This document shows, piece after piece, positions 13,164 to 28,133 of a stretch of 64,000 nt of DNA. Location of the stretch: positions 1,054,001-1,118,000 of the forward strand of contig NZ_JARGNB010000001.1 of the NCBI RefSeq assembly GCF_030167915.1. Direction: 5' to 3'. The first letter of the stretch is position 1. Each line of letters opens with the position of its first letter. Source of the stretch: Aquabacterium humicola. Lineage in GTDB: Bacteria; Pseudomonadota; Gammaproteobacteria; Burkholderiales; Burkholderiaceae_C. The translations under genes were made by a program, and so were the position numbers. The notes under the pieces were generated by a model. It was given only the letters and a program-made list of their open reading frames with translations. It was not told the origin of the DNA and did not search any database.

Positions 13164-13237
13164 AAACCACGCAATGCTGCGCCGCAGCTAAAGTCTGGCT
13201 CGTTGTGACCCCTCTACCCACTACAAGGAGCCGGAAC

Positions 13238-13801
13238 ATGTCCCTCATCAACACCCAGATCAAGCCCTTCAAGGCAACCGCGTACCACGCCGGCAAGTTC
13301 GTCGACCTGACCGAAGCGAGCCTGAAGGGCAAGTGGTCGGTGGTCTTCTTCTACCCGGCCGACTTCACCTTCGTCTGCCCGACCGAGCTCGGCGACCTGG
13401 CCGACCACTACGACACCTTCAAGTCGCTGGGCGTGGAGATCTACGGCGTGTCGACCGACACCCACTTCACCCACAAGGCCTGGCACGACACGTCGGACAC
13501 GATCAAGAAGATCAAGTACCCGCTGGTCGGCGACCCCACCGGCACGCTGACGCGCAACTTCGGCGTGATGATCGAGGAAGAAGGCCTCGCGCTGCGCGGC
13601 ACCTTCGTGATCAACCCCGAAGGCCAGATCAAGCTGATGGAAGTGCACGACAACGGCATCGGCCGCGACGCCTCGGAGCTGCTGCGCAAGGTGCAGGCGG
13701 CCCAGTACGTGGCGAGCCACCCGGGCGAAGTCTGCCCCGCCAAGTGGACGCCGGGCGCCGAGACCCTCGCGCCGTCGCTGGACCTGGTCGGCAAGATCTG
13801 A
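13238..13801 (+). CDS. ahpC: Alkyl hydroperoxide reductase, peroxiredoxin subunit AhpC
   Basis: AhpC reduces hydrogen peroxide, organic peroxides and peroxynitrite in the cytoplasm and is recycled by AhpF. It is 187 residues, the same length as E. coli AhpC. The peroxidatic Cys47 lies in DFTFVCPTE and the resolving Cys166 in GEVCPAKW, as in typical 2-Cys peroxiredoxins. A strong ribosome site (AAGGAG) precedes the ATG at 13238. ahpF follows 182 bases downstream in the same direction, separated by hairpins that may set the AhpC:AhpF ratio. Confidence 0.97.
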
Positions 13802-13857
13802 CCTTCCCACCCCCGTAGCGGCCTGGCGGCCGTTGCCCCCTCGGGCCTTCGCCCTCT

Positions 13858-13948
13858 CCCCCTCAAGGGGGCACCACCAGCGGCCCGGCGGAGCCGGTTC
13901 CGCGGTGGTCGCTTGACGAAGCCCTGACACCTGCGCTGCGCGCAGGTG
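13858..13948. repeat. REP-like palindromic cluster between ahpC and ahpF
   Basis: Three stem-loops follow each other in this non-coding gap. CCCCCT-CA-AGGGGG is at 13858-13871. A nested palindrome CCACC...GGTGG enclosing CCGGC-GGA-GCCGG is at 13874-13908. CACCTGCG-CTGCG-CGCAGGTG is at 13928-13948. I recall similar strings between genes of related Burkholderiales, so a REP-type element is likely; partial terminator or mRNA-stabiliser activity for ahpC is inferred. Confidence 0.55.
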
Positions 13949-13983
13949 CCGGGCTGACTTTCGCCTTCGCACGGAGATTCGCC

Positions 13984-15570
13984 ATGCTGGACACCGCCCT
14001 GAAGACGCAACTGAAGGCCTACCTCGAGAAGCTGCAGCGCCCGATCGAGCTGGTCGCCGCGCTCGACGACACGCCGAAGTCGCAGGAACTGCGCGCGCTG
14101 CTGGTCGACATCGCCGGGCTGTCGGCCAAGGTGAGCCTGGTCGAACGCACCGACGCGGGCCAGCGCACGCCGTCGTTCTCGATCGGCCTGCCCGGCGAGC
14201 CGGCGCGCATCCGCTTCGCCGGCATCCCGATGGGCCATGAATTCACGTCGCTGGTGCTCGCGCTGCTGCAGACCGGCGGCCACCCGGCGAAGGTCGAGGC
14301 GGCGCTGATCGAGCAGATCCGCGCGCTCGATCCGGCGCAGGACCTGGTCTTCGAGACCACCATGTCGCTGTCGTGCCAGAACTGCCCGGACGTCGTGCAG
14401 GCGCTGAACCTGATGGCGGTGCTGAACCCACGCGTGCGCCACACGACGATCGACGGCGCACTGTTCCAGGCCGAAGTCGAAGCGCGCCAGATCATGGCGG
14501 TGCCGACCGTGCACTTGAACGGCGCCGTCTTCGGCCAGGGCCGCATGGGCCTGGAGGAGATCGTCGCGAAGCTGGACACCGGTGCCGCGCAGCGCGACGC
14601 CGCGCGCCTGCATGCCAAGCCGGTGTTCGACATGCTGATCGTCGGCGGCGGCCCGGCCGGCGCCGCGGCCGCGGTGTACGCGGCGCGCAAGGGCATCCGC
14701 ACCGGCGTGGTCGCCGACCGCTTCGGCGGCCAGACGCTGGACACGCTGGGCATCGAGAACTTCATCTCGGTCAAGGAAACCGAAGGGCCGAAGTTCGCGG
14801 TCGCGCTGGAGCAGCACGTGCGCGAGTACGAGGTCGACGTGATGAACGCGCAGCGCGCCGAACGCCTGCTGCCGGCCGACGAACCGGGCGCGCCGATCGG
14901 CGTGCAGCTGGCCAACGGCGCGACCTTGCGGGCGCGCAGCATCGTGATCTCCACCGGCGCGCGCTGGCGCGAGGTGGGCGTGCCCGGCGAACGCGAGTAC
15001 CGCAACCGCGGCGTCGCCTACTGCCCGCACTGCGACGGCCCGCTGTTCAAGGGCCAGCGTGTCGCGGTGATCGGCGGCGGCAACTCGGGCGTCGAGGCGG
15101 CGATCGATCTCGCGGGCCTCGCGCGCGAGGTCACGCTGCTGGAGTTCGCGCCGCAGCTGCGTGCCGACGCGGTGTTGGTGAAGAAGCTCGAGAGCCTGCC
15201 GAACGTGCGCGTGGTCGTGAACGCGCAGACCACCGAGATCACCGGCGCGGCCGGCAAGGTCAACGGCCTGCGCTACCGGGACCGCACCGTCGGCGCGGAA
15301 CACGAGATCCCGCTCGAAGGCATCTTCGTGCAGATCGGCCTGCAGCCGAACACCGAGTGGCTCAAGGGCACGCTCGCGCTCAGCAAGCACGGCGAGATCA
15401 TCGTCGACGCCCGCGGCGCGACCAGCCTGCCCGGCGTGTTCGCGGCCGGCGACGTCACCACGGTGCCGTTCAAGCAGATCATCATCGCCGCCGGCGATGG
15501 CGCGAAAGCCGCGCTCGGCGCCTTCGACCACCTGATCCGCACGCCGGAGCCGGTGCTCGCTGCCGCGTAG
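13984..15570 (+). CDS. ahpF: Alkyl hydroperoxide reductase, flavoprotein subunit AhpF
   Basis: AhpF carries electrons from NAD(P)H through FAD and two disulfides to AhpC. The 528-residue chain has the expected order. The N-terminal double-thioredoxin domain has CQNC (Cys131, Cys134). The FAD-binding motif [12 protein letters not shown] lies near residue 220. The redox pair CPHC is at Cys347/Cys350, and a second nucleotide-binding motif is [14 protein letters not shown]-terminal GVFAAGDVT motif closes the FAD site. All redox residues are intact. Confidence 0.97.
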
Positions 15571-15578
15571 ATCGAGTG

Positions 15579-16376
15579 TTACTGCGTCGCGGTGATGCCG
15601 CCGTCCAGGTACAGCACCTGGCCGGTGACGAAGGCCGCGCCGGGGCTGCAGAGAAACACCGCCGCGCCGGCCACGTCGGCCGGCTCGGCGATCCGCCCGA
15701 GCGGGATGCGGGCGGTGATCTGCTCGCGCGTCGCCGGGTTGTCGAGCCAGTGGCGGGCCATCTCCGTGCGCACGACCGTCGGCGCGAGGCCGTTGACGCG
15801 GATGCCGTGCGGCGCCAGCTCGGCCGCATGCTGGCGCACCAGCATCTGCAGGCCGCCCTTGCTGCTGCAGTAGGCCGAGTAACCGCGCCCGCGCAGGCCC
15901 AGCTGCGCCCGCACCGACAGCAGCTGCAATTGCGCGCCGCCCCGGCCACCGGCGATCTGCGCTTTCGCCGCCGCCTGCGCGAGGAACATCGCCGCCTTCA
16001 GGTTCAGCTGCAGCACTTCGTCGTACGCCGCTTCGGTCACGTCGAGCAGCGGCTCCTCGCGCTGGATGCCGATGCAGTTGACGAGGACGTCCAGCGGTCC
16101 GGCGGCGGCCACGCCGTCGCGGATCGAGGCCACCGAATGGGCATCGATCACCGTGATCGCGGCCTCGTGGCCCGCGGCGCGCAGCCGCTCGGCGACAGCG
16201 GCCGCCTTCGTCTCGTCGCGCCCGCCCACCACCACGCCGGCGCCGGCGATCGCCAGCGCCCAGGCGATCGCCTCGCCGATGCCGCCGGTCGCGCCGGCGA
16301 CCAGTGCGCGCTGTCCGCGCAGGTCGAACAGCCCGCGCAGGCTGGCGGAATCGAGCGGCGGCGTGAGGCTCGTCAT
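15579..16376 (-). CDS. Short-chain dehydrogenase/reductase (SDR)
   Basis: This 265-residue classical SDR resembles gluconate 5-dehydrogenase-type enzymes. The cofactor loop is GATGGIGEA; the Asn-containing segment is VNCIGIQ; the catalytic Ser is in LLSVRAQ, with Tyr and Lys in YSAYCSSKG. The C-terminal YLDGGITATQ is typical. Substrate is unknown; its place at the end of the RpiR/IolC/Liv gene set suggests oxidation or reduction of a sugar, polyol or sugar acid. The start at 16376 is four bases from the LivH stop, so it is translated as part of the same operon. Confidence 0.85.
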   Translation of the reverse strand: MTSLTPPLDSASLRGLFDLRGQRALVAGATGGIGEAIAWALAIAGAGVVVGGRDETKAAAVAERLRAAGHEAAITVIDAHSVASIRDGVAAAGPLDVLVNCIGIQREEPLLDVTEAAYDEVLQLNLKAAMFLAQAAAKAQIAGGRGGAQLQLLSVRAQLGLRGRGYSAYCSSKGGLQMLVRQHAAELAPHGIRVNGLAPTVVRTEMARHWLDNPATREQITARIPLGRIAEPADVAGAAVFLCSPGAAFVTGQVLYLDGGITATQ

Positions 16377-16380
16377 GGGC

Positions 16381-17301
16381 TCAAGTGTCCAGCACGCTCT
16401 TCTTGCCGAACAGCCCGCGTGAACGCCAGGTGACGATGGCGATGAAGAGCAGGTACATGCTCATCAGCGACCACTCCGACGCGTAGGCGCCGGTCAGGCC
16501 GACGACCAGCCCCACCATCAGTCCGGCGATCACCGCGCCCCACAGCGAACCGACGCCGCCGAGCACGATGATCAGGAAGGCCGGCACCACCGCATCGACC
16601 CCCACCTGGGGCCGGATGCCCCAGATCGGCGCCATCACCACGCCGGCCAGCGCCGCCAGGGCGACGCCGAGCGCAAACACCAGCATGCGCAAGCGCGAGA
16701 GGTTGATGCCCAGCGCGCGCACCATCTCGCTGTCGTGCGCGCCGGCCTTGATGATCGCGCCATAGGGCGTGAACTCGAGGAACAGCCACAGCAGCACGAT
16801 CATCGCCAGCGCGAAGCCGGTGGCGAAGAAGCGGTAGCGCGCGTAGATCAGGTCGCCGATCAGGACGGCGCCATTGAGTGCCTCCGGCAGCGGCAACTGC
16901 TTCTCGGTGGCGCCCCAGCCCAGGCGGATCAGCTCCTCGATCACCAGCGCGGCACCGAAGGTCAGCAGCAGGCCGTAGAGCGGATCGCGGCCGTAGGTGC
17001 GGCGCAGGCACAGCTCGAGCAGCAGCCCGAAGGTGCCGACGAACACCGGCGCCAGCGCCAATGCCAGCGCGTAGCGCAGCTCGACCGGCAGGCCGCGGTA
17101 CCACTGCTGCAGCTCGGGGAACCAGCCGAGCTGCGGCGCAATCACGAACAGCGCCGCGTACATGCCGAGCGCGAACAGCGAGCCGTGCGCGAGGTTGATC
17201 GTCTCCATCACGCCGACGATCAGCATGAAGCCGAGCGCGATCAGCGCGAACAGCAGGCCGAGCGACAGCCCGTTCAGCAGGTGCGGCAGCAGCTGAGCCA
17301 T
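16381..17301 (-). CDS. livH: LIV-type ABC transporter permease (LivH family)
   Basis: This 306-residue inner-membrane permease belongs to the branched-chain amino acid (HAAT) family. It begins with the conserved LLNGLSLGLLFALIALGF helix, then GVMETINLAHGSLFALGMY, typical of LivH, and continues with about eight helices. It should pair with the LivM-like permease encoded divergently at 22465. The ligand need not be an amino acid: neighbours are sugar-acid/polyol enzymes. It lies ten bases downstream of the binding-protein gene. Confidence 0.9.
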   Translation of the reverse strand: MAQLLPHLLNGLSLGLLFALIALGFMLIVGVMETINLAHGSLFALGMYAALFVIAPQLGWFPELQQWYRGLPVELRYALALALAPVFVGTFGLLLELCLRRTYGRDPLYGLLLTFGAALVIEELIRLGWGATEKQLPLPEALNGAVLIGDLIYARYRFFATGFALAMIVLLWLFLEFTPYGAIIKAGAHDSEMVRALGINLSRLRMLVFALGVALAALAGVVMAPIWGIRPQVGVDAVVPAFLIIVLGGVGSLWGAVIAGLMVGLVVGLTGAYASEWSLMSMYLLFIAIVTWRSRGLFGKKSVLDT

Positions 17302-17311
17302 GCGGGAAGGA

Positions 17312-18625
17312 TCAGACCTCGTAACTCGGCGTGGCCTCGTAGCTCTCCAGCTTGCACGCCGCCGCCGCGTCCTTGTCCTGCACCTCCTTCGGATCGACCT
17401 GCGCGAGGATCTTGAAGATGTCGTCCTTCTCCGCCGGCGCGTCGTTGTAGCTGGCCATGTAGATCGTCTGCTGGCACTGGTGCGTGGCCGGGTCGATCCA
17501 CGCATCGAAGTGCTGCAGCCGGTCGGCCGCGGCCATCTTGCGGCCCTCAAGCTTCTTGATGACGGCCAGGTTGTTCGTCGTGCCGGCCTCCTCGACGCAG
17601 CGCAGCAGCTCGCGCGTGGCCATGTAGGCGTTGTGATAGACGTTGCCCGGCACGCGGATCGCCATGCCCGGGTACTGCTTCTGGTACGCGGCGACGAACT
17701 CCTTCACGCCGGGCAGGTTCAGCCGGTAGTACCAGGTGGTGCCGAAGACACCGAAGATCGCCTCCGGCCCCAGGCCGTAGACGTCGGGCCAGTCCTGCTG
17801 GTTGTTGATCCACGCGGCGGCCTGGTGCATCTTCAGCTGCACCACCTGCTGGCGCAGCGCCTTGATGTCGTCGCCGCCGACCGCGGTGGCCACCACCTGC
17901 GGCTTCAGCTGCTGCAGCTTCAGCAGGTAGGGCGAGAAGTCGCGCGTGTTCTGCGGCACCAGCAGTTCGTCGATCACCTTGCCGCCATTGGCCTCGATCA
18001 CCGCGCGCGTGGCCTTCGAGGTGTTGTGGCCCCACACGTAGTCGTTGGTCAGCAGCACCCAGTTCTTGCCGCTGGTCTTCATCGCGTTCTTGACGATGGC
18101 CTGCGAGAAGTTGCTGCCGTTGCCGTCCCAGACGAACTTGACGCGGTGGCAGTCCTTGCCGGCCTCGGTCGGCGAGCTGGAGTTGGTGTTGAGGAACACC
18201 GTGCCGTACTTCTGCGCCACCTGCGAGATCGCATTGGCGACGCCCGAGTGCACCGCGCCGATCAGGAACGCGGCCTCGTTGCGCGTGATCATGCGTTCGG
18301 CCACGCGCGAGCCGGTGGCCGGCGTGGTCTCGGTGTCCATGTGCAGCGCCTCGATGCGCCGGCCGAGCACGCCGCCTTTGTCGTTGAACTCCTTGATGGC
18401 CATCATCGCGCCCAGCCGCTCCTCGCCGCCGGAGGCCGCGTACTGGCCCGATGCGTCCATCGTCAGCCCGATCACCAGCGGCTTTTTCTGCCCGGCCTGG
18501 GCCCACGCATGGTTGTGCTTCCACGGGCCGTAGAACGGCGCGACGCCGTAGAGCCCCGCGCCCAGCAGCGCCAGGCCCGATTGCCGCAGCAGCGCGCGGC
18601 GGTTCGGATGCTCGAGTTCGCTCAT
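17312..18625 (-). CDS. LIV-type ABC transporter substrate-binding protein, Tat-exported
   Basis: This 437-residue periplasmic binding protein belongs to the Leu/Ile/Val receptor class (type 1 fold). The N-terminus has a twin-arginine signal (NRRALLRQSGLALLGAG) with probable cleavage after HAWAQA near residue 43. The mature part starts with LVIGLTMDASGQYAASG, the usual first strand and ligand loop, and includes IGAVHSGVANAI and the hinge region. Ligand specificity cannot be read. It feeds the LivH/LivM/LivG/LivF parts encoded around it. Confidence 0.9.
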   Translation of the reverse strand: MSELEHPNRRALLRQSGLALLGAGLYGVAPFYGPWKHNHAWAQAGQKKPLVIGLTMDASGQYAASGGEERLGAMMAIKEFNDKGGVLGRRIEALHMDTETTPATGSRVAERMITRNEAAFLIGAVHSGVANAISQVAQKYGTVFLNTNSSSPTEAGKDCHRVKFVWDGNGSNFSQAIVKNAMKTSGKNWVLLTNDYVWGHNTSKATRAVIEANGGKVIDELLVPQNTRDFSPYLLKLQQLKPQVVATAVGGDDIKALRQQVVQLKMHQAAAWINNQQDWPDVYGLGPEAIFGVFGTTWYYRLNLPGVKEFVAAYQKQYPGMAIRVPGNVYHNAYMATRELLRCVEEAGTTNNLAVIKKLEGRKMAAADRLQHFDAWIDPATHQCQQTIYMASYNDAPAEKDDIFKILAQVDPKEVQDKDAAAACKLESYEATPSYEV

Positions 18626-18642
18626 GTTGATCTCCTCGGGGG

Positions 18643-19557
18643 TCAGGCGCGCGGCACGATGCGCACGTCGTTGAGCTGCTCCTGCGCTTCGAACAGCGAG
18701 GCGATCAGGCGTCCGCCTAGCCCCAAGTTCGTCGCCTGCACCAGCGCCTGGTGCGCGGCGGTGCCGATCGGTGCGGCCACCGGCAGCGTCTCGGCCAGGT
18801 GCGCGAAGTAGCGCAGGTCCTTCTGCGCATTGCCGATGCCGAAGCGGAAGCCGTCGACCGCGCCCTCCTTCAGCATGCGCGTGGCCATCATCTGGAAGAT
18901 GCCGCAGTTGACGCCGCCGACCGACACCACGTCGTAGAGCCGGTTCAGGTCGAGCCCGGCCTTCGCGGCGACGGCGAAGGCCTCCGCGATCGCACAGGCG
19001 AAGCTCATCGCCATCATGTTGTTGACGAGCTTGAGCACATGGCCGTGGCCCGGCGGGCCGACGTGAAAGATGTTTTCGCAGAACGCGCGCAGCACCGGCT
19101 CGATGGCTTCGAAGTCGGCGGCTTCGGCCCCGACCATCGTGTTCAGGCGGCCCTCCTCGGCCTCCTTCGGCGTGCGCGCGAGCGGTGCGTCGATCAGGAC
19201 CGCGCCGCGTGTCGCGAGCTCGGCGCGCAGCTGGGTCGTCGAGGCCGGCTCGGCGGTCGAGCAGTCGACGATGCGCAGCCCCGACCGCGCGCCTTCGAGC
19301 AGGCCCTGGCGGCCGCGCACCACCTCCTCGACCTGCGGCGAGCCGGTGACGCAGACCAGCACCACGTCGCAGTCGCGCGCCAGTGCCGCGTGGCTGTCAA
19401 CCTCGACCGCGCCGGCGGCGGTCAGCTCGTCGATGCGCTCGCGGCTGCGGTGCGCCTTGAACTTCAGCGAGAAGCCCTTGGCGAGCAGGTTGCGCGCGAT
19501 GCCATGGCCCATCATGCCGAGGCCGACCAGGCCGATGCGTTGGGCTGCAGTCGTCAT
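18643..19557 (-). CDS. Beta-hydroxyacid dehydrogenase (3-HIBADH / tartronate semialdehyde reductase family)
   Basis: This 304-residue NAD(P)-dependent oxidoreductase starts with the Rossmann motif IGLVGLGMMGHGIARNL. It also has DAPLARTPKEAEEG, the family substrate-binding segment, and the catalytic lysine region GHVLKLVNNMM. Such enzymes interconvert 2-hydroxy-3-oxopropionate/glycerate, 3-hydroxyisobutyrate and similar acids. The start overlaps the end of iolC by four bases, so it acts in the same pathway; which acid it uses is not clear. Confidence 0.88.
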   Translation of the reverse strand: MTTAAQRIGLVGLGMMGHGIARNLLAKGFSLKFKAHRSRERIDELTAAGAVEVDSHAALARDCDVVLVCVTGSPQVEEVVRGRQGLLEGARSGLRIVDCSTAEPASTTQLRAELATRGAVLIDAPLARTPKEAEEGRLNTMVGAEAADFEAIEPVLRAFCENIFHVGPPGHGHVLKLVNNMMAMSFACAIAEAFAVAAKAGLDLNRLYDVVSVGGVNCGIFQMMATRMLKEGAVDGFRFGIGNAQKDLRYFAHLAETLPVAAPIGTAAHQALVQATNLGLGGRLIASLFEAQEQLNDVRIVPRA

Positions 19558-21470
19558 GCGACGCTCCTTTCAGGGGCGGGGTGCCGGGCGGCATCCCAGT
19601 GAGAGATCAGCCGTGCGTAGCGGCGTGCGACGTCGTCGACCACCGCGTCGTCGGACATCTCGTCCGCGAACCAGGCGCGGGCTGCCGGCCCGAACACCGA
19701 GCGGCCGATCGCGAAGCCGCGGCACAGCGCATGCGGCGCGGCCTCGTGGAACTGGCGGGCGAGCGCGGCCTCGTCGGCCTCGTTGCCGAGCAGCAGCACG
19801 CCGCGGCAGAACGGATCGCGTTGACCGATCAGGTCGACGATCGCGCTCCACGCGGCGGCCGATGGCGCCGGCAGCTTCCACCAATCCGGGCGCAGGCCGG
19901 CGTCGTAGAGCTGCGCCAGCGAGGCCACGGTGGTGAGCGCGTCCACCACGCTGTCGCGCGGCGCCATCACCTCCAGCAGCCAGGCGCGGCCCTCGGCGAT
20001 GCAGACCCGCTGCAGCGCCGCCAACCGCTCGACCTGCTGCGCCCGCAGCGCGGCATCGTCGTCCGGATGGTGCAGCAGCAGGCACTTCGCGACCTGCCCG
20101 GTGGGCCACTGCCGCAGCTCGAGCGCGAGGTCGGGCGCCTCGAAACGCAAGGGCCGCGATCCCGGCTGTTCGACAGCCCGCGCGATCCACCAGCCGCGCC
20201 GGTGCAGCGCCGGCAACAGCGCTTCCCCATAACCGCTGTCGACGATCAGGCCGGCGCCCGGCCGCTGCACCGCCACCTGCTGCGCGGCAGCATCGACCAG
20301 GCGCTTGAAGTGACGGATGCGCCGGGCCGCCGCGTCGCCACTGCCCGCCAGCCGTTCCAGCTGTGCGCGGTGATCGATCGCCAGCACCAGCAGCTCGGGC
20401 GGATCGGCGCGGCGCGTGGTCGCGCGGTGCACGTGTTCGAGCTGTTCATCCTCGCGCAGCCGCGGCGTCGTGACGCCGTGCGTGAGGAAGTGCTGCAGCT
20501 CGGTCCAGCTGGGCATCGCCGGCGCGCAGCCGTGGCGCGAGACGACCAGCGCGCCGCAGGCATTGCCCCAGCGGCTGCTGCGCTCCAGCGGCTCGCCGAC
20601 CAGCCAGCCGCGCAGGAAACCGGCCATGAACGCGTCGCCCGCGCCGAGCACGTTGAAGACCTCGATCGGGAAGCCCGCGTCTTGCAGGCCGTCGTCGATG
20701 CCGCCGGGGATCGCGCCGTCGAAGACGACACAGCCCGCGGCGCCGCGCTTCATCACAAGCGTGGCGTCGGTCAGCGCGCGCAGGCGGCGCAGCGCGTCGA
20801 TCGTTGTCGTGCTGCCACCGGCGATGTGGATCTCTTCCTCGGTGCCGACGACCAGGTCGCACTGCGGCACGACCGCCTGCAGCACCGCGCTGACCTCGGC
20901 GCTCTCGACGTAGCGCTGCTCGCCCAGGCCCGGCGCGGTCAGGTTCCACAGCACCGGCCGGTAGTCGATGTCCAGCACGATGCGCGTGCCGGCCGCGCGC
21001 GCCGCGGCGATGGCCGCGTCGCAGGCCGCGCGTGTGCCGGGCTGCGACAGGTGCGTGCCGGAGACCAGCAGCGCGCCGGCGTCGGCAATGACCGCGGGAT
21101 CGATGTCGCCGGCGCACAAGCCCATGTCCGCGCAGTTTGCGCGGTAGAAGATCAGCGGAAAGGTGTCGCGGTCCTGGATGCCGAGGAAGACCAGCGCGGT
21201 CAGCCGGGCCGGATCGGTGCGCACCTGGCTGACGTCCACCCCTTCGGCGGCCAGCGATTCGCGCACGAAGCGGCCGTTGTGCTCGTCGCCGACGCGGGTG
21301 AGCATCGCGGCCCGAAGCCCCAGGCGCGCCAGGCCCACCGCGGTGTTCGCCGGCGAGCCGCCGAGGTACTTGCTGAAGCTGCGCATGTCCTCGAGGCGAC
21401 CGCCGACCTGGTCGCCGTAGAGGTCGACCGCGGCACGGCCGAGGCAGATCAGGTCGAAGCGACGACTCAT
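19554..21470 (-). CDS. iolC: 5-dehydro-2-deoxygluconokinase fused to DUF2090 domain (IolC-type)
   Basis: Residues 1-325 are a PfkB/ribokinase-family kinase of IolC type, which phosphorylates 5-dehydro-2-deoxygluconate in inositol breakdown. Seen are the start FDLICLGRAAVDLYGDQ, the glycine-rich KYLGGSPANTAVGLARLG and the catalytic NVLGAGDAFMAGFL. Residues 350-638 match DUF2090, a TIM-barrel aldolase-like domain often fused to IolC and annotated as the following aldolase. The ATG at 21470 overlaps the rpiR stop (ATGA). No iolB, iolD, iolE or iolG lies in the window, so an inositol role is uncertain and another deoxy-ketose may be the substrate. Confidence 0.9.
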   Translation of the reverse strand: MSRRFDLICLGRAAVDLYGDQVGGRLEDMRSFSKYLGGSPANTAVGLARLGLRAAMLTRVGDEHNGRFVRESLAAEGVDVSQVRTDPARLTALVFLGIQDRDTFPLIFYRANCADMGLCAGDIDPAVIADAGALLVSGTHLSQPGTRAACDAAIAAARAAGTRIVLDIDYRPVLWNLTAPGLGEQRYVESAEVSAVLQAVVPQCDLVVGTEEEIHIAGGSTTTIDALRRLRALTDATLVMKRGAAGCVVFDGAIPGGIDDGLQDAGFPIEVFNVLGAGDAFMAGFLRGWLVGEPLERSSRWGNACGALVVSRHGCAPAMPSWTELQHFLTHGVTTPRLREDEQLEHVHRATTRRADPPELLVLAIDHRAQLERLAGSGDAAARRIRHFKRLVDAAAQQVAVQRPGAGLIVDSGYGEALLPALHRRGWWIARAVEQPGSRPLRFEAPDLALELRQWPTGQVAKCLLLHHPDDDAALRAQQVERLAALQRVCIAEGRAWLLEVMAPRDSVVDALTTVASLAQLYDAGLRPDWWKLPAPSAAAWSAIVDLIGQRDPFCRGVLLLGNEADEAALARQFHEAAPHALCRGFAIGRSVFGPAARAWFADEMSDDAVVDDVARRYARLISHWDAARHPAPERSVA

Positions 21471-22342
21471 GAGACCCGCCTCGTCGTCCCGCGCGGCTTC
21501 GCCGCCTTCGCCGCCGCCAGCTCCGCCAGCCGGTGCCCGGTTCCGACCACCAGCGCCTGCGCGAGGCACAGCGGCGCGACAAGCGAGCGGAAGGGCCGCG
21601 ACGAGTCGTCGGCGATCTCGAAGCACACCTCGGCCTGCGCCTGCAGCGGCGACAGCGGCGCATCGGTCAGTGCGATCACCGGCACGCGGCGCTCGCGGCA
21701 GGCCTGCGCGGCCTCGAGCACCTCGGGCGAATAGGGCCGGAAGCTGGCGACGATCAGCAGGTCGTTCTTGCCGATCAGCCGCAGGCCGTCGCGCAGCATG
21801 CCGCCGACGCCGTCGAGCAGCTGCGCGCGCAACTCCAGCCGGCCGAGCGCGTAGGCCAGGTAGCAGGCCACCGGGAACGCGCGCCGCTGGGCGAGCACGT
21901 GGATGCGCTCGGCCTGGGCGATGCGCCGGACCGCCGCCTGCAGGTCGGCGGCGTGGATGCCCTCTTCCAACTGCCCGAGGTCGGCCACCGCATCGCCGAC
22001 CAGCTCGTGCAGCACGCCGCCAGGCGTGCCCCGGCCATTGACCGGCGTGCGCCGCAGCTGCGCGATGCGGTCGCGGTAGCTGCCGCCGGAGCGTTCAACG
22101 AGGTGGCCGCGGAAGACCTGCTGCATCTCCGAGAAGCCGCGGTAGCCCAGCGCATTGGCGAAACGCACCATCGCCGAGGGCTGCACCTCGTTGGCCTCGG
22201 CCAGCGCCGCCACCGTGCCCAGCGCCAGCTCGTGCGGCTTCTCCAGCGCGTAGCGCGCGATGCGCTGCTGCTGCTTCGACAGCGTCGGGAACGCGGCGGC
22301 GATCACGCCCTTCAGTTCCTCGTAGCTTGCGGCCGGGGTCAT
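21467..22342 (-). CDS. RpiR family transcriptional regulator
   Basis: This 291-residue regulator has an N-terminal RpiR helix-turn-helix (residues 10-85, with TVAALAEANEVQPSAMVRFANALG) and a C-terminal SIS sugar-phosphate sensing domain (LLIVASFRPYSPEVLEAA, then VIALTDAPLSPL). It heads the minus-strand operon with iolC and probably controls both that operon and the divergent liv genes through the palindromes in the shared 122-base gap. The inducer is probably a phosphorylated sugar intermediate made by the kinase it precedes. Confidence 0.9.
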   Translation of the reverse strand: MTPAASYEELKGVIAAAFPTLSKQQQRIARYALEKPHELALGTVAALAEANEVQPSAMVRFANALGYRGFSEMQQVFRGHLVERSGGSYRDRIAQLRRTPVNGRGTPGGVLHELVGDAVADLGQLEEGIHAADLQAAVRRIAQAERIHVLAQRRAFPVACYLAYALGRLELRAQLLDGVGGMLRDGLRLIGKNDLLIVASFRPYSPEVLEAAQACRERRVPVIALTDAPLSPLQAQAEVCFEIADDSSRPFRSLVAPLCLAQALVVGTGHRLAELAAAKAAKPRGTTRRVS

Positions 22343-22366
22343 CTCGGGAAAGTCCTCGTTCGGATC

Positions 22367-22421
22367 AGAACGACATCAGAACAAACGTTCTTGCATGTGG
22401 AATGATGAGAACGTACATTCC
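22367..22421. promoter_or_regulatory. Operator region between rpiR and livM
   Basis: Two inverted repeats sit in the AT-richer divergent gap: AGAAC-AAAC-GTTCT (22378-22391) and GGAATG-N11-CATTCC (22399-22421). In addition AGAACGACAT (22367) recurs as AGAACGTACAT (22408). Arrayed dyads between an RpiR gene and the transport genes are what an autoregulated RpiR operator would look like. Binding is inferred. Confidence 0.6.
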
Positions 22422-22464
22422 AATCACGGCCTTGTCCAGTCTTGTTGCGAAAGGGTTTTCCAGC

Positions 22465-23481
22465 ATGCGCCGATCGAGCGGTCCCGCGAGCCTGTTGCCG
22501 TGGCCCATGCTGCTCACGCTCGGCCTGCTGCTGTCGACACCGCTGTGGCTCAAGCAGGTCGGCCTGTACCAGTACCTGGCGCTCGAGGTCGCGATCTGGA
22601 TGCTGTTCGCGCTCGGGCACAACCTGCTGCTGGGCATCAGCGGCCTGCCCTCCTTCGGCCACGGCGCCTACTTCGGCATCGGCGCCTATGCCTTCGGCCT
22701 GCTGCAGCAGCGCCTGGTCGCCAACCTGTGGCTGGACCTGGCCGGCGCAGTGCTCGCCGCGGCGATGGCAGGCGCCCTGGTCGCCCTCTTCATCTCGCAC
22801 CGGCGCGGCATCTACTACGCGCTGCTGACCATCGCCTTCGGCCAGGTGGCGTGGTTCATCGCGATCAAGTGGCACTCGGTCACCGGCGGCGAGGACGGGC
22901 TGCTGAACATCCGGCGCCTGCCGATCGAGCTGGGCTTCGCGACGCTGCCGCTGCACAGCAACGAGGCGCTGTTCTTCTTCTGCCTCGGCGTGCTGGCGAT
23001 CGTGATGGCGGCGCTGTGGCGCCTGCTGCATTCGCCCTTCGGCCATGTGCTGTCGGCCATCCGCCAGAACGAGCTGCGCGCGGCCTTCATCGGCCACCAC
23101 GTCTGGCTGTGCAAGGCACTCGTATTCACGCTGTCGGCGGCAATCGCCGGCCTTGCCGGTGCGCTGTTCGCGATGGCCCAGCAATCGGCCTATCCGAACG
23201 TGATGAGCCTGCACAACTCGGGCTTCGTCGTGATGATGGTGCTGATCGGCGGCGGGCTCGTCAGCTTCTGGGGGCCGCTGGCAGGCGCGGCCTTCTTCAT
23301 CCTCGCGCGCGACCTGCTGGGCGCCTACACCGAGACCTGGCTGCTGTGGTACGGCCTGGTCTTCATCGCGATGGTGCTGGTGAAGCCGGAGGGGCTAGCG
23401 GGGCTGTGGCAGGACGGGGCCGCATGGTGGCAGCGGCGACGCGGGCTGCCATCGGCGCGCATCGAGCACCGGGAGGCTTGA
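22465..23481 (+). CDS. livM: LIV-type ABC transporter permease (LivM family)
   Basis: This 338-residue inner-membrane permease has the LivM hallmarks GISGLPSFGHGAYFGIGAY and RRGIYYALLTIAFGQ, with about ten helices. It should form a heterodimer with LivH encoded at 16381-17301. The ATG at 22465 is preferred as it precedes a short basic segment and helix 1; in-frame codons further upstream fall in the operator region. The ATPase genes follow after an unusual 438-base gap containing mirrored repeats. Confidence 0.9.
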   Translation: MRRSSGPASLLPWPMLLTLGLLLSTPLWLKQVGLYQYLALEVAIWMLFALGHNLLLGISGLPSFGHGAYFGIGAYAFGLLQQRLVANLWLDLAGAVLAAAMAGALVALFISHRRGIYYALLTIAFGQVAWFIAIKWHSVTGGEDGLLNIRRLPIELGFATLPLHSNEALFFFCLGVLAIVMAALWRLLHSPFGHVLSAIRQNELRAAFIGHHVWLCKALVFTLSAAIAGLAGALFAMAQQSAYPNVMSLHNSGFVVMMVLIGGGLVSFWGPLAGAAFFILARDLLGAYTETWLLWYGLVFIAMVLVKPEGLAGLWQDGAAWWQRRRGLPSARIEHREA

Positions 23482-23556
23482 CGTGAGGACACGCTGCGCG
23501 ACGGCGGCTGACGGCCTGTTGCGGACGTTCGCCGTCGCGTGCGGAGGTCTGCACAA

Positions 23557-23856
23557 GATCAGGCCGACGGGGCGCTCTGTTCCGCTCATGTCCCCCGGGC
23601 CGGGCTGCGTAGATACGCCCCGGGTGGTGCTCGGCCGGCCCTCCTCCTTGACTTCGCTCCACAGAGCGCCCCGCCGTCCTGATCCGCACCGCCCTGGCAA
23701 GGGATCGCACGCCACGGTGTCGCATGAGCCAAGGGCGCTGGGTGCCCGGCGTAGCGAAGTCAAGGAGGAGGGCCGGCCGGGATCCAGCCTGAGGCGTATC
23801 AGCGGCGCACGGCCCGGGGGACATGAGCGGAGCCGGGCACCCAGTGGCCTTGGCGC
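23557..23856. repeat. Pair of inverted palindromic intergenic elements
   Basis: The 438-base gap between livM and livG (23482-23919) contains two palindromic units in opposite orientation. Unit 1 (23557-23684) is A-B-C-A', where A (23557-23583) and A' (23659-23684) pair. Unit 2 (23726-23856) is D-C'-B'-D', where D (23726-23750) and D' (23832-23856) pair. C (23633-23658) is an exact inverted copy of C' (23753-23778), and B (23582-23602) of B' (23810-23830). The layout resembles a BIME built from two REP-like units of about 130 bases. No gene is seen in the gap. Confidence 0.8.
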
Positions 23857-23919
23857 GCTCGGTGACCGCATGCATGACTTCAACGGACCGCCAGCGGCCG
23901 GTCCCCACGGCGGCGCGGA

Positions 23920-24669
23920 ATGAACATGCCCCTCTTCGAAGCCAAGGGCCTCGCCAAGCGCTTTGGCGACCAGGTCGTGCTGCAGAACGTCTCGCTGCGG
24001 GTCGACGAGGGCCAGCTGGCCGGCATCATGGGTCCGAACGGCGCCGGCAAGACGACGACTTTCCACCTGCTGACCGGCCGCTACAAGCCCGACCGCGGCC
24101 GCGTGCATTTCGCCGGCGAGGACATCACCGGGCTGGCGCCGCGCGAGATCGCGCGCAAGGGCATCGCGCGGTCGTTCCAGGCGATGAACCTGTTCGACGC
24201 CGACAGTGCGCTCGACAACGTGCTGGTCGCGCTGCCGGCGGTGCGCGCGCGCGGCTTCGATGCGTGGCGCGATCTCGGGCGCGACGGCGCGGCGCAGGAC
24301 GCGGCGGCCGCGGTGCTGGCGCGCGTGGGGCTGAAGGGCAAGGAACACGTGAGCGCGAAGCGCCTGTCCTACGGCGACCGGCGGGCGCTGGAGATCGGCG
24401 TCGCGCTGGCCGCGGCGCCGCGGCTGCTGTTCCTCGACGAGCCGACCGCCGGCCTCGGGGCCGACGGCACGGCACGCCTCATCGAGCTGATCCAGGAGTT
24501 GAAGCGCCGGCTGACCATCGTGGTCATCGAGCACGACATGCGCTTCCTGTTCGGCCTGGCCGACCGCATCACGGTGATCCACTGGGGCCAGGTGATCGCC
24601 GAAGGCACGCCCGATGCGCTGCGCAGCAACGAGTGGGTGCGGCGCTCGAACCTGGGGGCCTTGCAGTGA
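23920..24669 (+). CDS. livG: LIV-type ABC transporter ATP-binding protein (LivG family)
   Basis: This 249-residue ATPase energises the Liv-type importer. Walker A is GPNGAGKTT, the Q-loop is in RSFQAMNLF, the signature is the variant LSYGDRR usual in LivG, Walker B is LLFLDEP and the H-loop is VIEHDM. The C-terminal LivG tail (IAEGTPDALRSNEWV) is present. All catalytic elements are intact. The stop overlaps the GTG start of livF. Confidence 0.92.
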   Translation: MNMPLFEAKGLAKRFGDQVVLQNVSLRVDEGQLAGIMGPNGAGKTTTFHLLTGRYKPDRGRVHFAGEDITGLAPREIARKGIARSFQAMNLFDADSALDNVLVALPAVRARGFDAWRDLGRDGAAQDAAAAVLARVGLKGKEHVSAKRLSYGDRRALEIGVALAAAPRLLFLDEPTAGLGADGTARLIELIQELKRRLTIVVIEHDMRFLFGLADRITVIHWGQVIAEGTPDALRSNEWVRRSNLGALQ

Positions 24670-25376
24670 GCGGCGATCCGATGCTGGCCGTCGACCGCAT
24701 CGACACCTTCTACGGCGAGACGCAGGTGCTGTTCGGTGTGTCGCTGCAGGTGCGCGCCGGCGAGGTGCTGGCACTGCTGGGGGCCAGCGGCGCCGGCAAG
24801 ACGACGACCTTGCGATCGATCCTCGGCCTGACGCCGCCGCGGCGCGGTGCGATCCGGTTCGACGGCCGCGACATCAGCCGCGCGCCGACGCATGCCATCG
24901 CGCGCGCCGGCATCGGCTGGGTTCCGGACGACCGCCGCATCTTCCCGACGCTGACCGTCGCGCGCAACCTGGCCATCGCGCGCAAGGCCACGCGCTTCAA
25001 GCGCTGGACCCTGGCCGACTGCTTCGGCCTCTTCAGCGCGCTGGAGCACCTGATGCCACGTGAATGCGAGAACCTGTCAGGCGGCGAGATGCAGATGGTG
25101 GCGATCTCGCGCGCGCTGCTCGGTGCGCCGGGCCTGGTGCTGTTCGACGAACCGAGCCAGGGCCTCGCGCCGAAGGTGGTGCAGGACGTGATGGCGATCA
25201 TCGGCCGTCTGAAGCATGAAGGCGTCGCGGCGATCGTCGTCGAGCAGAACGTGTCGAGCGCCCTGGCGGTGGCCGACCGCATCTGCGTGATGAGCAGCGG
25301 CCGCATCGTGCACGACGGGCCGGCGGACGTGCTGCGCGGCGATGCGGCACTGCGCCGGCAGCTGCTGGGAGTCTAG
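24666..25376 (+). CDS. livF: LIV-type ABC transporter ATP-binding protein (LivF family)
   Basis: This 236-residue second ATPase has Walker A GASGAGKTT, the typical LivF stretch IGWVPDDRRIFPTLTV, signature LSGGEMQ, Walker B LVLFDEP and H-loop VVEQNV. The start is taken as GTG 24666, which gives a four-base overlap with livG; ATG 24681 is the alternative. With LivG it would complete the transporter formed by LivH, LivM and the Tat-exported binding protein. Confidence 0.92.
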   Translation: MSGDPMLAVDRIDTFYGETQVLFGVSLQVRAGEVLALLGASGAGKTTTLRSILGLTPPRRGAIRFDGRDISRAPTHAIARAGIGWVPDDRRIFPTLTVARNLAIARKATRFKRWTLADCFGLFSALEHLMPRECENLSGGEMQMVAISRALLGAPGLVLFDEPSQGLAPKVVQDVMAIIGRLKHEGVAAIVVEQNVSSALAVADRICVMSSGRIVHDGPADVLRGDAALRRQLLGV

Positions 25377-25379
25377 GCC

Positions 25380-26024
25380 ATGAAGGACGCGGCCATGCCG
25401 TCACCGACAGACACCCCGCTGTTGCAGGTCGACGGACTCGCGCGCCACTACCGCCGCGGCCTGCCGCTCGCGCGGCGCACGACCTTCTCGCTGGCCGCCG
25501 ATTTCCGCATCGACGCGCCGGCCGTGATCGGCGTGCTGGGGCCGAACGGCTCGGGCAAGACGACGCTCTTCGAGCTCATCACCGGCAGCAACCGGCCCGA
25601 CGCCGGGCGCGTGCTGGTGCGCGGCCAGGACATCCACGCGGTGCGCACCCGCGAACGCGACCGGCTGGCCATCCACTACCACCAGTCCTACCAGCTGCGG
25701 CGCTTCCGCCGCCGCCGGCCCGACTGGATGCTGGCGCCGGCCCGGTCGGACGCGCCCTGGGTGCACCTCTTCGACGAGCCGCAGTTCAATACGCAGGACG
25801 GCTACATCGGCTTCATGCTCGACTTCTTCCGCCGCCTGCGCGGCGAGGGCCGGCTGGTGCTGCTGTGCCTGCACCCGAACGAACCCTTCCACGTGCAGAT
25901 CCTGCGCGAGATCTGCGAGGGCTTCCTGTTCGTGCAGACCGGCAGCGTGACGCGCCTGCCGGACTTCGAAACGCTGGCGGCCGAGCCGCGCGTGCGGCAA
26001 TACTTGGGCGCGCTGGCGCCGTGA
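25380..26024 (+). CDS. Reduced ABC ATPase lacking the signature subdomain
   Basis: This 214-residue protein is clearly ABC-ATPase derived. It has Walker A GPNGSGKT (residues 54-61), a Q-loop-like HQSYQ (Gln102), Walker B HLFDEP (Asp132, Glu133) and an H-loop-like LCLHPNE (His165). Only about 30 residues separate Q-loop and Walker B where about 75-80 are normal, so most of the helical subdomain with LSGGQ is missing. The frame is open and codon use is normal, so it is not an obvious pseudogene. It starts three bases after livF. Without a signature it cannot make a canonical ATP sandwich; a regulatory or non-transport role is possible. Confidence 0.8.
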   Translation: MKDAAMPSPTDTPLLQVDGLARHYRRGLPLARRTTFSLAADFRIDAPAVIGVLGPNGSGKTTLFELITGSNRPDAGRVLVRGQDIHAVRTRERDRLAIHYHQSYQLRRFRRRRPDWMLAPARSDAPWVHLFDEPQFNTQDGYIGFMLDFFRRLRGEGRLVLLCLHPNEPFHVQILREICEGFLFVQTGSVTRLPDFETLAAEPRVRQYLGALAP

Positions 26025-26025
26025 G

Positions 26026-27444
26026 TCAGGTTGATGGCGGCGCGATGGCGGCTTCGGCCTCGGCCGGGGCGTCGGCCGCCGCTGCCGGCATCTGCGGAAT
26101 GCGCGCGCGCACCCGTGTGCCCCGGCCGGGCGCCGACGTGACTTCGAATTCGCCGCCGTCTGACTCGACGCGGTAGCGCATGCCGCGCAACCCGTGGCGC
26201 CCCTGCGCCTCGGCGCTGACGTCGAAGCCGCGCCCGTCGTCGTCGACCTCGATGCTCGCCATGCCGTCGTCATCGTCGGTCAACGTCACCTTGACGCTGC
26301 GCGCCTTCGCGTACTTGGCGATGTTGGTGAAGGCCTCCTGCACGAGGCGGAAGACCGTCAGCTCGGCCTCGGGCGTCAGGCGCACCGGCGCGAACGACGC
26401 GTCGACGTCCAGCCCGATGCGTTCGCCGAACTCGCGGCACTGGATCTCCAGCGCGGCCACGAGGCCCAGCGTGCTCAGCGACGACGGGCGCAGGTCCTCG
26501 ATGATGCGGCGCTTCAGCGCGATGCCGCTGTTGAGCGTGGCCGTCAGGTGGTCCAGGCGCTCCAGCGCCTCGGGGGCGGCATTGGCCAGCCGTGGCTTGA
26601 TGCGCGCGGCGTCGAGCTTGGCGGCGGTCAGCAGCGCGCCGAGCTCGTCGTGCAGCTCGCGCGCCAGGCGCTGGCGTTCGTCCTCGCGTGCGGTCTGCAG
26701 GTGGCGCGCGAGCTCGGTGAGGTCGGTGGTGCGGCGGCGCACCTGCACTTCGAGCCGGTCGCGCTCGGCCTGCAGTGCCTGCTGCTGGCTGCGGCGCTGC
26801 GTTTCCATCGACTGGCGCTGGCGCAGGAAGAGGATCAGCGCCAGCAGGCTCGCCCCGGTCAGCGTCGCGACGCCGATGCGGTTCAGCAGCAGCGTGCCGA
26901 AGATGCGCTTCAGGCTCTGCTCGGCACGCCGGTTCTCCAGCGCCATCAGCTGCTCGCTGCGCACGCGGATGAACTCCATCTGGTCGCGGCCGATGTTGGT
27001 CATCACCACCTCGCGCGCGGTGTCGATGCGGCCTTCGCGCGCGAGGCGTATGGTCTCCTTCGCTTCGCTGACACGCAGCGTCACCGTCTCGGCGAGCTGG
27101 CGCGCCACCGGCTGCGCGGCCGGGTCGCCCAGGTGCTCGTAGTAGTCGCGCAGGGTCAGCAGGCTCTGCTCGAGCTCGGCCACCGCGCTGTCGAAGGGCG
27201 CGAGGTACTCGTCGCGCAGGGTCAGCAGGTAGCCGCGCTGGCTCGATTCGACGTCGACCGTGCGCCGCATCACCGCGTAGACCGCCAGCCGCGCCTGGCC
27301 GACCTCGACCAGCCGGTCCAGCGTGGTGCGCGCCTGCTGGTAGCCGCCTTCGCTGACCGCGATGATCAGCCCGCCCGCCAGCACCGCCAGCGGCAGCGCG
27401 AATGCGCTGTCGCGGAACCGGCGCAGCCAGTCCGGAAGTTTCAC
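26026..27444 (-). CDS. Sensor histidine kinase, CHASE3 plus NarX/DegS-type kinase core
   Basis: This 472-residue membrane sensor has helix 1 at residues 16-32, a periplasmic four-helix CHASE3-like domain with the typical ESSQRGYLLT motif (about 35-175), a second helix near 190-208, a coiled coil, then a HisKA_3 domain with the phospho-acceptor His265 in ARELHDELGALL. A HATPase_c domain follows, with VFRLVQEAFTNIAKYAKA and VDDDGRGFD. The C-terminal 25 residues are alanine-rich. It is divergent from a NarL-type regulator 56 bases away, its probable partner. The signal is unknown. Confidence 0.9.
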   Translation of the reverse strand: MKLPDWLRRFRDSAFALPLAVLAGGLIIAVSEGGYQQARTTLDRLVEVGQARLAVYAVMRRTVDVESSQRGYLLTLRDEYLAPFDSAVAELEQSLLTLRDYYEHLGDPAAQPVARQLAETVTLRVSEAKETIRLAREGRIDTAREVVMTNIGRDQMEFIRVRSEQLMALENRRAEQSLKRIFGTLLLNRIGVATLTGASLLALILFLRQRQSMETQRRSQQQALQAERDRLEVQVRRRTTDLTELARHLQTAREDERQRLARELHDELGALLTAAKLDAARIKPRLANAAPEALERLDHLTATLNSGIALKRRIIEDLRPSSLSTLGLVAALEIQCREFGERIGLDVDASFAPVRLTPEAELTVFRLVQEAFTNIAKYAKARSVKVTLTDDDDGMASIEVDDDGRGFDVSAEAQGRHGLRGMRYRVESDGGEFEVTSAPGRGTRVRARIPQMPAAAADAPAEAEAAIAPPST

Positions 27445-27500
27445 CGTGCGCCCTCCCCAGGCCTACACTCGCGCGAGCATCGCCAGGAGGCTGCCCGCGC

Positions 27501-28133
27501 ATGATCCGCATCGCGATCGTCGACGACCATGCCGTGGTGCGCGCCGGGCTGCGGCAGTTCTTCTCCGACCAGGTCGACCTGCGCGTCACCGGCGAGGCGG
27601 CCAACGGCCGCGAGGCGCTCGACCTGCTGCGCGCCGGCGAGATCGACGTGATGCTGATGGACCTGTCGATGCCGGGCCAGGGCGGCGTCGACGCGCTGGC
27701 GGCGATCAAGGCGCGCGCGCCCGACCTGCCGGTGCTGATCCTGTCCGGCCTGCCCGAGGAACACTACGCCACCGCCCTGCTGAAGCAGGGCGCCAGCGGC
27801 TACCTGACCAAGGACTGCGATCCCGAGGACATCCTGCGCGCGATCCGCACCGTCGTGCGCGGCCGCAAGTACATCACCCCGTCGGTCGCCGAGCGGCTGG
27901 CCGACAGCCTGGCCGGCGACGCCGACAAGCCGCCGCACGAGCTGCTGTCCGAGCGCGAGTTCCAGGTCTTCCTGCGCCTGGCCAGGGGGGAGACGATCGG
28001 TCATATGGCCGACAGCATGTCGCTGTCGGTGAAGACCGTCAGCACCTACCGCACGCGCGTCATGGAGAAGATGAAGCTGTCGACCAACAGCGACCTGACC
28101 TACTACGCGCTGAAGAACGGCCTGATCCAGTGA
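27501..28133 (+). CDS. NarL/FixJ-type response regulator
   Basis: This 210-residue DNA-binding regulator has a receiver domain with acidic pocket Asp8/Asp9, phospho-acceptor Asp54 (LMDLSMP) and the conserved Lys in YLTKDCD. The LuxR-type helix-turn-helix is at about residues 148-208 (LSEREFQVFLRLARG ... SLSVKTVSTYRTRVMEKM). The ATG at 27501 is preceded by AGGAGG. It is divergent from, and probably phosphorylated by, the CHASE3 kinase at 26026-27444. A NarL-family-like palindrome at 29014 is a candidate target. Confidence 0.93.
   Translation: MIRIAIVDDHAVVRAGLRQFFSDQVDLRVTGEAANGREALDLLRAGEIDVMLMDLSMPGQGGVDALAAIKARAPDLPVLILSGLPEEHYATALLKQGASGYLTKDCDPEDILRAIRTVVRGRKYITPSVAERLADSLAGDADKPPHELLSEREFQVFLRLARGETIGHMADSMSLSVKTVSTYRTRVMEKMKLSTNSDLTYYALKNGLIQ

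Follow-up and report, generated by a model that had tools for sequence, protein, structure and literature searches.

The divergent locus at positions 15579-26024 of a 64,000-nucleotide window from the genome of Aquabacterium humicola (contig NZ_JARGNB010000001.1; the window is the whole stretch of DNA analysed) contains ten genes in two operons, in which an importer of the HAAT class is combined with an RpiR-family regulator and enzymes of sugar type. Its content suggests that the substrates of this importer family, usually amino acids and urea, extend to a sugar-type acid. A substrate of sugar type is probable. The fuller reading, that the locus is a catabolic unit under RpiR control in which a 2-deoxy-hexonate is imported and passed through a short-chain dehydrogenase (SDR) to the kinase-aldolase fusion IolC-DUF2090, is given a probability of about 0.4.

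According to this reading, the compound taken up by the HAAT importer would be a sugar derivative with a carboxyl group. A 2-deoxy-hexonate, for instance 2-deoxy-D-gluconate or an epimer of it, is the most likely candidate, being the simplest compound that a single SDR step makes into a substrate of the kinase. The SDR would oxidise the imported acid to 2-deoxy-5-keto-D-gluconate, and IolC-DUF2090, to judge from its family and conserved residues, would phosphorylate this product at C6 and then cleave it to dihydroxyacetone phosphate and malonate semialdehyde. The HIBADH-type enzyme might perhaps reduce the C3 semialdehyde or a related product. The lower part of the inositol route would then be entered without iolB, iolD and iolE. 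RpiR is predicted to bind paired GAA-N6-TTC sites between the operons, and ABCx, an extra ABC-type ATPase, could be a nucleotide-binding accessory subunit of the importer, a role suggested by its observed co-occurrence with the importer and its lost motif. The features are as follows.

15579..16376, minus strand: SDR dehydrogenase (SDR1), 265 aa (PF13561, 1.9e-52)
16381..17301, minus strand: livH-type permease (PF02653; UrtB 176.7 bits vs. a cut-off of 250, LivH 93 vs. 379)
17312..18625, minus strand: receptor of the HAAT class, periplasmic, with a possible Tat signal (PF13458, 1.7e-66)
18643..19557, minus strand: beta-hydroxyacid dehydrogenase of the HIBADH family (PF03446 and PF14833)
19554..21470, minus strand: IolC-DUF2090 fusion, predicted 5-dehydro-2-deoxygluconokinase and 2-deoxy-5-ketogluconate-6-phosphate aldolase (NF047869)
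21467..22342, minus strand: RpiR-family regulator with HTH_6 and SIS domains (PF01418, PF01380)
22379..22390, no strand assigned: operator-like site 1, GAA-N6-TTC, GAACAAACGTTC
22409..22420, no strand assigned: operator-like site 2, 30 bases from site 1, GAACGTACATTC
22465..23481, plus strand: livM-type permease (PF02653, 2.6e-37); start set by eye against locus L016, alternative starts possible
23482..23919, plus strand: spacer with a dispersed palindromic repeat, outside the system
23920..24669, plus strand: livG-type ATPase (PF00005, 1e-30; UrtD 203 and LivG 195 bits, both below cut-off)
24681..25376, plus strand: livF-type ATPase with an LSGGE signature (PF00005, 2.7e-31; UrtE 206 and LivF 172 bits, both below cut-off)
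25380..26024, plus strand: ABCx, extra ABC-type ATPase without the signature motif and helical subdomain

All ten genes that an earlier note, the sequence-only reading, had placed in this divergent locus were recovered at these coordinates by profile matches. The overlaps and short gaps that it described on the minus strand are also present: from SDR to rpiR the gaps are 4, 10, 17, -4 and -4 bases, a spacing that resembles a single operon. Its description of the locus as tight holds for this strand, but on the other strand 438 bases with a palindromic repeat part livM from livG. The two permease genes lie on different operons, as noted, and this arrangement is confined to the betaproteobacterial loci.

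The IolC-DUF2090 fusion exceeds the NCBIfam cut-offs of NF047869 (720 vs. 600 bits) and TIGR04382 (404 vs. 300 bits). It is present as a single copy; four other matches in the genome reach at most 74 bits and cover the kinase domain only. The canonical inositol pathway, defined by iolB, iolD and iolE in the same genome, was not found. Profile searches of the whole genome (7.39 Mb, listed as 100% complete) gave no match to iolE, only matches below the cut-off to iolD (best, 269 of 715 bits) and a single match to iolB, which scores 42 of 205 bits and by eye is KduI beside a KduD-like SDR. The sequence-only reading had reported iolB, iolD, iolE and iolG as missing from the window; for the first three the absence over cut-off now extends to the genome, while iolG was not searched for.

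The fusion, the RpiR regulator and the IolR-like sites would all agree with import of myo-inositol or another inositol for the classical pathway. However, that explanation was rejected and is largely refuted, because iolB, iolD and iolE are missing over cut-off, and it is now very improbable. It is also opposed by the genome G197, which has a separate sugar-type ABC importer, recognised by eye, within an inositol cluster. This cluster is complete and starts about 5 kb from the importer genes; iolB, iolE, iolD and iolG are over cut-off, IolC-DUF2090 scores 993 bits, and a second RpiR is seen by eye. The importer locus of G197 itself has no IolC-DUF2090, an arrangement that fits an importer substrate requiring this enzyme.

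The accessible text of PMC9007349 uses fitness data to connect IolC-DUF2090 fusions with inositol use in nine bacteria. On the basis of a conserved Lys and Glu it proposes that DUF2090 is the 2-deoxy-5-ketogluconate-6-phosphate aldolase, and it counts DUF2090 in 22 of 232 genomes of organisms not known as inositol users. The LacD-type Lys/Glu pair, as given in that text, is present in the DUF2090 domain of the window protein, 38 residues apart (K462 and E500). These two residues and D279 of the GAGD motif are invariant in all 55 aligned sequences, 38 of them from importer loci (importer-linked) and 17 for comparison. The comparison set consists of G197, ten sequences from family genomes without IolE and six plasmid-borne ones; only six of the 17 (G197 and five plasmids) are shown within inositol clusters, with iolD and iolE alongside, and the sixth plasmid record is unannotated. 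A shift of the substrate site was considered and dropped: 40 differences from the 11 betaproteobacterial sequences were reduced to two conservative ones when the six alphaproteobacterial plasmid sequences were added. These two, positions 583 and 601, are the only class-specific positions. The window fusion shares 48-50% identity with the 11 sequences from family genomes and 50-56% with the six plasmid-borne ones, and its reaction may be read as unchanged. In a tree, the 35 betaproteobacterial importer-linked fusions form one clade (99/99). A single origin of all importer-linked fusions is unsupported, since three alphaproteobacterial sequences fall outside it.

A survey of 250 genomes of the family links this class of fusion to the receptor. 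NF047869 is over cut-off in 41 of them, 34 at 964-1036 bits and seven at 724-808 bits, and all seven lower-scoring genomes have the receptor a few kb away. The receptor itself occurs in 10 of the 250: these seven, G197 and two more at 39-40% identity. IolE is over cut-off in 26 genomes, including 24 of the 34 high-scoring ones and none of the seven receptor-linked ones (Fisher p 0.0009); the other two have fusion fragments only.

The importer belongs to the HAAT class by its composition: profile searches found a Peripla_BP_6 receptor, two BPD_transp_2 permeases and two ABC ATPases. In bits against the NCBIfam cut-off, the Liv models were missed by LivH (93/379), LivM (108/366), LivG (195/362) and LivF (172/441), and the Urt models by UrtA (97/493), UrtB (177/250), UrtC (135/296), UrtD (203/304) and UrtE (206/286). 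The term Liv-type importer used in the sequence-only reading is thus correct as to class, but the subunits are nearer to Urt than to Liv models, with LivG and UrtD nearly equal. The start of the receptor carries an NRRALLRQ stretch, and the family consensus has RRxLLK, which we take to be compatible with a Tat export motif; Tat export, as proposed earlier, is possible. An AlphaFold2 model of the receptor (mean pLDDT 83.7) has 4maa, 8tg1 and 3i09 as its top Foldseek matches, at 21-23% identity, and the first ten include binders of urea, amides, aromatic acids and amino acids. A polyol appears less likely as a substrate than an acid, because the ligands of its solved relatives are amino acids, amides, urea or aromatic acids, and because the inositol entry enzymes are missing. 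In 12 of 80 related loci (L017, L022, L024, L027, L029, L031, L033, L037, L039, L040, L044 and L065) the receptor gene is followed by another one in tandem, with 56-63% identity to the receptor of the window, and the eight tandem copies placed in a tree form one deep clade. A plasmid search with the receptor gave no match at 1e-60.

The importer could also be an ordinary one for amino acids, amides or urea that lies beside sugar genes by chance. Every subunit is of the HAAT class and nearest to the Urt models, binders of amino acids, urea and amides are among the closest solved receptors, and 4 of 54 related loci have no enzyme of the set nearby. However, no Urt or Liv cut-off is reached, and IolC-DUF2090 or a Gfo/Idh-family gene accompanies the importer in 42 of the 54. 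In LivJ, the Glu of the GPEG motif holds the amino group of the ligand. In two alignments of the window receptor with E. coli LivJ, to which it is 18% identical, this Glu faces Ala or Tyr; since no acidic residue stands opposite, the receptor perhaps binds no amino acid, a weak comparison that only hints away from an amino-acid ligand. A chance neighbourhood is decidedly unlikely on balance.

Conservation of the gene set was followed from the receptor. A scan with one genome per species returned 172 relatives. The 80 best were taken on, and gene presence was counted in the 54 of these loci with at least 7.5 kb on each side, the 26 with short flanks being dropped. The counts were made by tblastn with self-chosen identity thresholds and refer to presence within the fetched stretch, not to adjacency; close relatives (Variovorax, Polaromonas, Rhizobacter) are included. 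Besides Betaproteobacteria, the relatives include Alphaproteobacteria and metagenome-assembled genomes labelled Myxococcota and Binatota, these at receptor identities of 61-68%. livH, livM, livG, livF, ABCx and RpiR were each present in 54 of 54 loci, so a search of other genomes for the set, which the sequence-only reading had proposed, found importer, regulator and extra ATPase together every time, and the pairing of a HAAT importer with RpiR and sugar-type enzymes is kept across these lineages. Among the enzymes, SDR was found in 49 loci, HIBADH in 34, IolC-DUF2090 in 31, Gfo/Idh in 11, aldehyde dehydrogenase (ALDH) in 10, and IlvD and HpcH in 7 each; IolC and Gfo/Idh never shared a locus (0/54). 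The commonest pattern was IolC with HIBADH and SDR (28 loci, one also with an IlvD match), followed by Gfo/Idh (11), HIBADH and SDR only (6), none of the enzymes (4), IolC and SDR (3) and SDR only (2).

The betaproteobacterial loci split the permeases between divergent operons; in the alphaproteobacterial loci the order receptor, livH, livM, livG, livF and ABCx runs on one strand. The importer there precedes Gfo/Idh, SDR and ALDH, with an IlvD/Edd dehydratase and an HpcH aldolase in part of the loci; the 11 Gfo/Idh loci have ALDH in 10 cases, HpcH in 7 and IlvD in 6. One protein of each family was scanned. The IlvD/Edd protein scores 1037 bits for L-arabinonate dehydratase, over the cut-off of 882. 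For the Gfo/Idh protein the IolG score is 94 of 355 bits, so it is not called IolG, and the ALDH and HpcH proteins match Aldedh and HpcH/HpaI without being over cut-off among the models listed. These enzymes point to sugar-acid catabolism and would independently support a sugar-type substrate for this importer branch. A second SDR, SDR2, occurs in 44 of the 80 loci (L016-L095), with none in L016.

The dehydratase, ALDH and HpcH aldolase of part of the alphaproteobacterial loci are of the kind expected if the substrate in all lineages were a hexose or pentose acid (an aldonate), with the betaproteobacterial kinase-aldolase acting on a keto-aldonate other than the inositol intermediate. Both gene sets also share an SDR. 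Against this stand the fusion itself, in which the catalytic residues are unchanged and just two positions differ by class, both conservatively, and its position near alphaproteobacterial inositol IolC in the tree. An aldonate throughout is rather unlikely.

The intergenic sites would connect the two operons to the regulator. The survey took in 73 regions at the start of rpiR, each of 275 bases or less, from the window and from 72 of the 80 loci. GAA-N6-TTC occurs in 71 of them, with two or more sites in 49; the 140 sites compare with 7.5 expected from Markov resampling and are about 30 times as dense as in the rest of the loci. Most often, sites are spaced 30 bases apart (30 cases). A stricter form, GAAYN4RTTC, is found in 37 of the 38 betaproteobacterial regions and in 24 of the 35 others. 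In the window, two sites lie between rpiR and livM (22379 and 22409) and one elsewhere, at 49219. The accessible text of PMC2597717 describes GGAA-N6-TTCC upstream of the Caulobacter inositol genes that are under the control of IolR, a member of the RpiR family. The motif stands twice before iolC, and mutating one copy is reported to have raised expression. The likeness of the window sites to this published inositol-regulator site appears strong. Because the sites are conserved before rpiR, co-regulation of both operons, as the sequence-only reading had supposed, can be argued, with RpiR as the predicted binder of the paired sites.

The window RpiR shares 35-40% identity with eight RpiR proteins encoded next to other iolC genes, and only marginally more with those of some distant importer loci (L063 38%, L072 40%, L089 42%; L059 48%). 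Eight stretches were examined for sites between rpiR and iolC: one GAA-N6-TTC is present in L098, L100, L102 and L103, and the intergenic site is absent from the G197 inositol cluster (L097) and from L116. A second pair with 30-base spacing lies before the HIBADH gene in the importer locus of G197 (L096, 11352-11393).

ABCx is a constant partner of the receptor. At E values up to 1e-25 it was found in 8 of the 250 family genomes, exactly those eight with a receptor at 82% identity or more. In alignments of 66 sequences, near-copies included, and also of 37, Walker A (GxNGxGKTT) and Walker B (HLFDEP) are invariant and the HYHQSYQ Q-loop and the H-loop are kept; neither these alignments nor the model contain an LSGGQ signature or a helical subdomain. 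In the window protein, 23 residues separate the Q-loop from HLFDEP, and its AlphaFold2 model (mean pLDDT 93.3) matches ABC ATPases. The earlier call of an extra ATPase therefore stands as regards the ABC type and the Walker motifs, but the ABC signature is missing. In ABC ATPases, the Walker A of one subunit pairs with the signature of its partner, and the motif is needed for paired working. For this reason ABCx could bind ATP against its partner's signature while offering none itself, and its role may be regulatory or asymmetric.

The nearest solved relatives of SDR1 are L-xylulose reductase and gluconate (5-)dehydrogenases (PDB 4egf, 4ibo and 5u9p), with 2-deoxy-D-gluconate 3-dehydrogenases lower in the list. 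The HIBADH-type protein is over the cut-off of no NCBIfam equivalog. In an alignment of 45 sequences from related loci with GarR, YgbJ and YihU, it has PLxxTP where GarR and YgbJ have PVSGG.

The enzyme classes of both lineages match the sulfo-EMP and sulfo-ED routes in kind. A sulfo-sugar route could accordingly be imagined, with PfkB kinase, LacD-type aldolase and HIBADH reductase in one lineage and dehydratase, HpcH aldolase and ALDH in the other, and the RT step of E. coli YihU is present in at least 90% of the 45 HIBADH sequences. However, this step is lost in L059 (LALTP), the HIBADH-type protein is no closer to YihU (27% identity) than to GarR (29%), and YihV and YihT match IolC-DUF2090 only weakly. 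Such a route is a most improbable explanation.

Several observations weigh against 2-deoxy-hexonate use as the function of the locus. The dehydratase of the alphaproteobacterial loci cannot act on a 2-deoxy acid, so either the substrates differ or the deoxy-acid assignment is wrong; since the dehydratase-bearing loci cannot use a 2-deoxy acid in that way, the importer branch taken together probably serves more than a single sugar acid. Of the 54 loci, 23 have no IolC-DUF2090, including the six with HIBADH and SDR, the two with SDR only and the four with none of the enzymes; 3 of the 31 IolC loci lack HIBADH, and these counts take in near relatives. SDR1 is below every cut-off among the 25 NCBIfam models listed, and the top structural matches of the window receptor include amino-acid receptors. 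The three alphaproteobacterial importer-linked fusions branch near plasmid-borne alphaproteobacterial IolC, unseparated from it. The argument from G197 comes from one genome only. Finally, 10 of the 34 high-scoring fusion genomes also lack IolE over cut-off, so its absence is not unique to the importer-linked class.

In these ten genomes (L098-L107), IolB is found by the fusion gene in nine and a TctC receptor in the stretch in all ten, close (69-100%) in eight; an RpiR-like gene adjoins IolC-DUF2090 by eye in the six stretches read gene by gene, while the remaining four were covered by tblastn. This arrangement resembles a second entry that does not depend on inositol, perhaps one for 5-deoxyglucuronate, and IolC-DUF2090 seems to be the endpoint of several routes. 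The ten genomes also offer a parallel for an importer of 5-deoxy-D-glucuronate, 2-deoxy-5-ketogluconate or another late inositol intermediate released by other microbes, with the SDR catalysing a side reaction. IolC-DUF2090 alone would be enough for 2-deoxy-5-ketogluconate. However, iolB is below cut-off in the A. humicola genome, so its own IolB could not isomerise 5-deoxyglucuronate, and SDR is more widespread in the loci (49/54) than IolC (31/54). Scavenging of this kind is unlikely, and the 2-deoxy-hexonate reading is retained.

The livM-livG gap holds a palindromic, self-complementary repeat of about 320 bases (23545-23860) that is predicted to form a single long hairpin. It occurs at 16 places in the same genome with 74-100% identity, and a diverged copy is found at the same position in L016 and L110. 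The gap measures -36 to 57 bases in 35 other betaproteobacterial loci, where the repeat would not fit. L016, from Aquabacterium terrae, is the closest named relative locus, with a receptor 94% identical to that of the window. The neighbours of the locus, identified by eye, are ahpC and ahpF-like genes on one side (13205-15570), with the ahpF-like gene directly after SDR1, and a histidine kinase and response regulator on the other (26026-28133).

The locus provides a concrete case of an IolC-DUF2090 fusion without the inositol pathway, an alternative to the tie between DUF2090 and inositol drawn in the accessible text of PMC9007349. If the reading is correct, a sugar-type substrate would be added to an importer class annotated by default for branched-chain amino acids, and the importer may have a third, signature-less ATPase subunit of a kind not known from the Liv and Urt systems. 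The locus also exposes a conserved ATPase-like subunit without the motif required for paired ABC ATPase work. A HAAT branch moved from amino acids to sugar acids, with such an ATPase, inositol-independent 2-deoxy-hexonate use of IolC-DUF2090 and an IolR-like RpiR, can be put forward tentatively as a combined picture. A literature search, covering open papers only, recognised no description of the cluster or of ABCx.

Compared with the inositol pathway containing IolC-DUF2090, as presented in the accessible text of PMC9007349, the window fusion is likewise over cut-off and keeps the catalytic residues, whereas its genome lacks iolB, iolD and iolE over cut-off. The Caulobacter IolR regulon, within what PMC2597717 makes accessible, shares the RpiR family, the GAA-N6-TTC core and the presence of two sites, as before Caulobacter iolC, but the two window sites do not both retain the outer G and C of GGAA-N6-TTCC. 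With the Liv and Urt HAAT importers the locus has in common the receptor fold, two permeases and two ATPases; unlike them, it stays below the cut-offs and adds a signature-less ATPase, RpiR and sugar-type enzymes. The L-arabinonate dehydratase route resembles some alphaproteobacterial loci in its dehydratase (one tested, over cut-off), ALDH and HpcH aldolase, enzymes that are absent from the window locus, and such routes usually come with sugar importers of another class than HAAT. Each part of the locus thus belongs to a known family, while the gene combination and ABCx have apparently not been described in the open literature.

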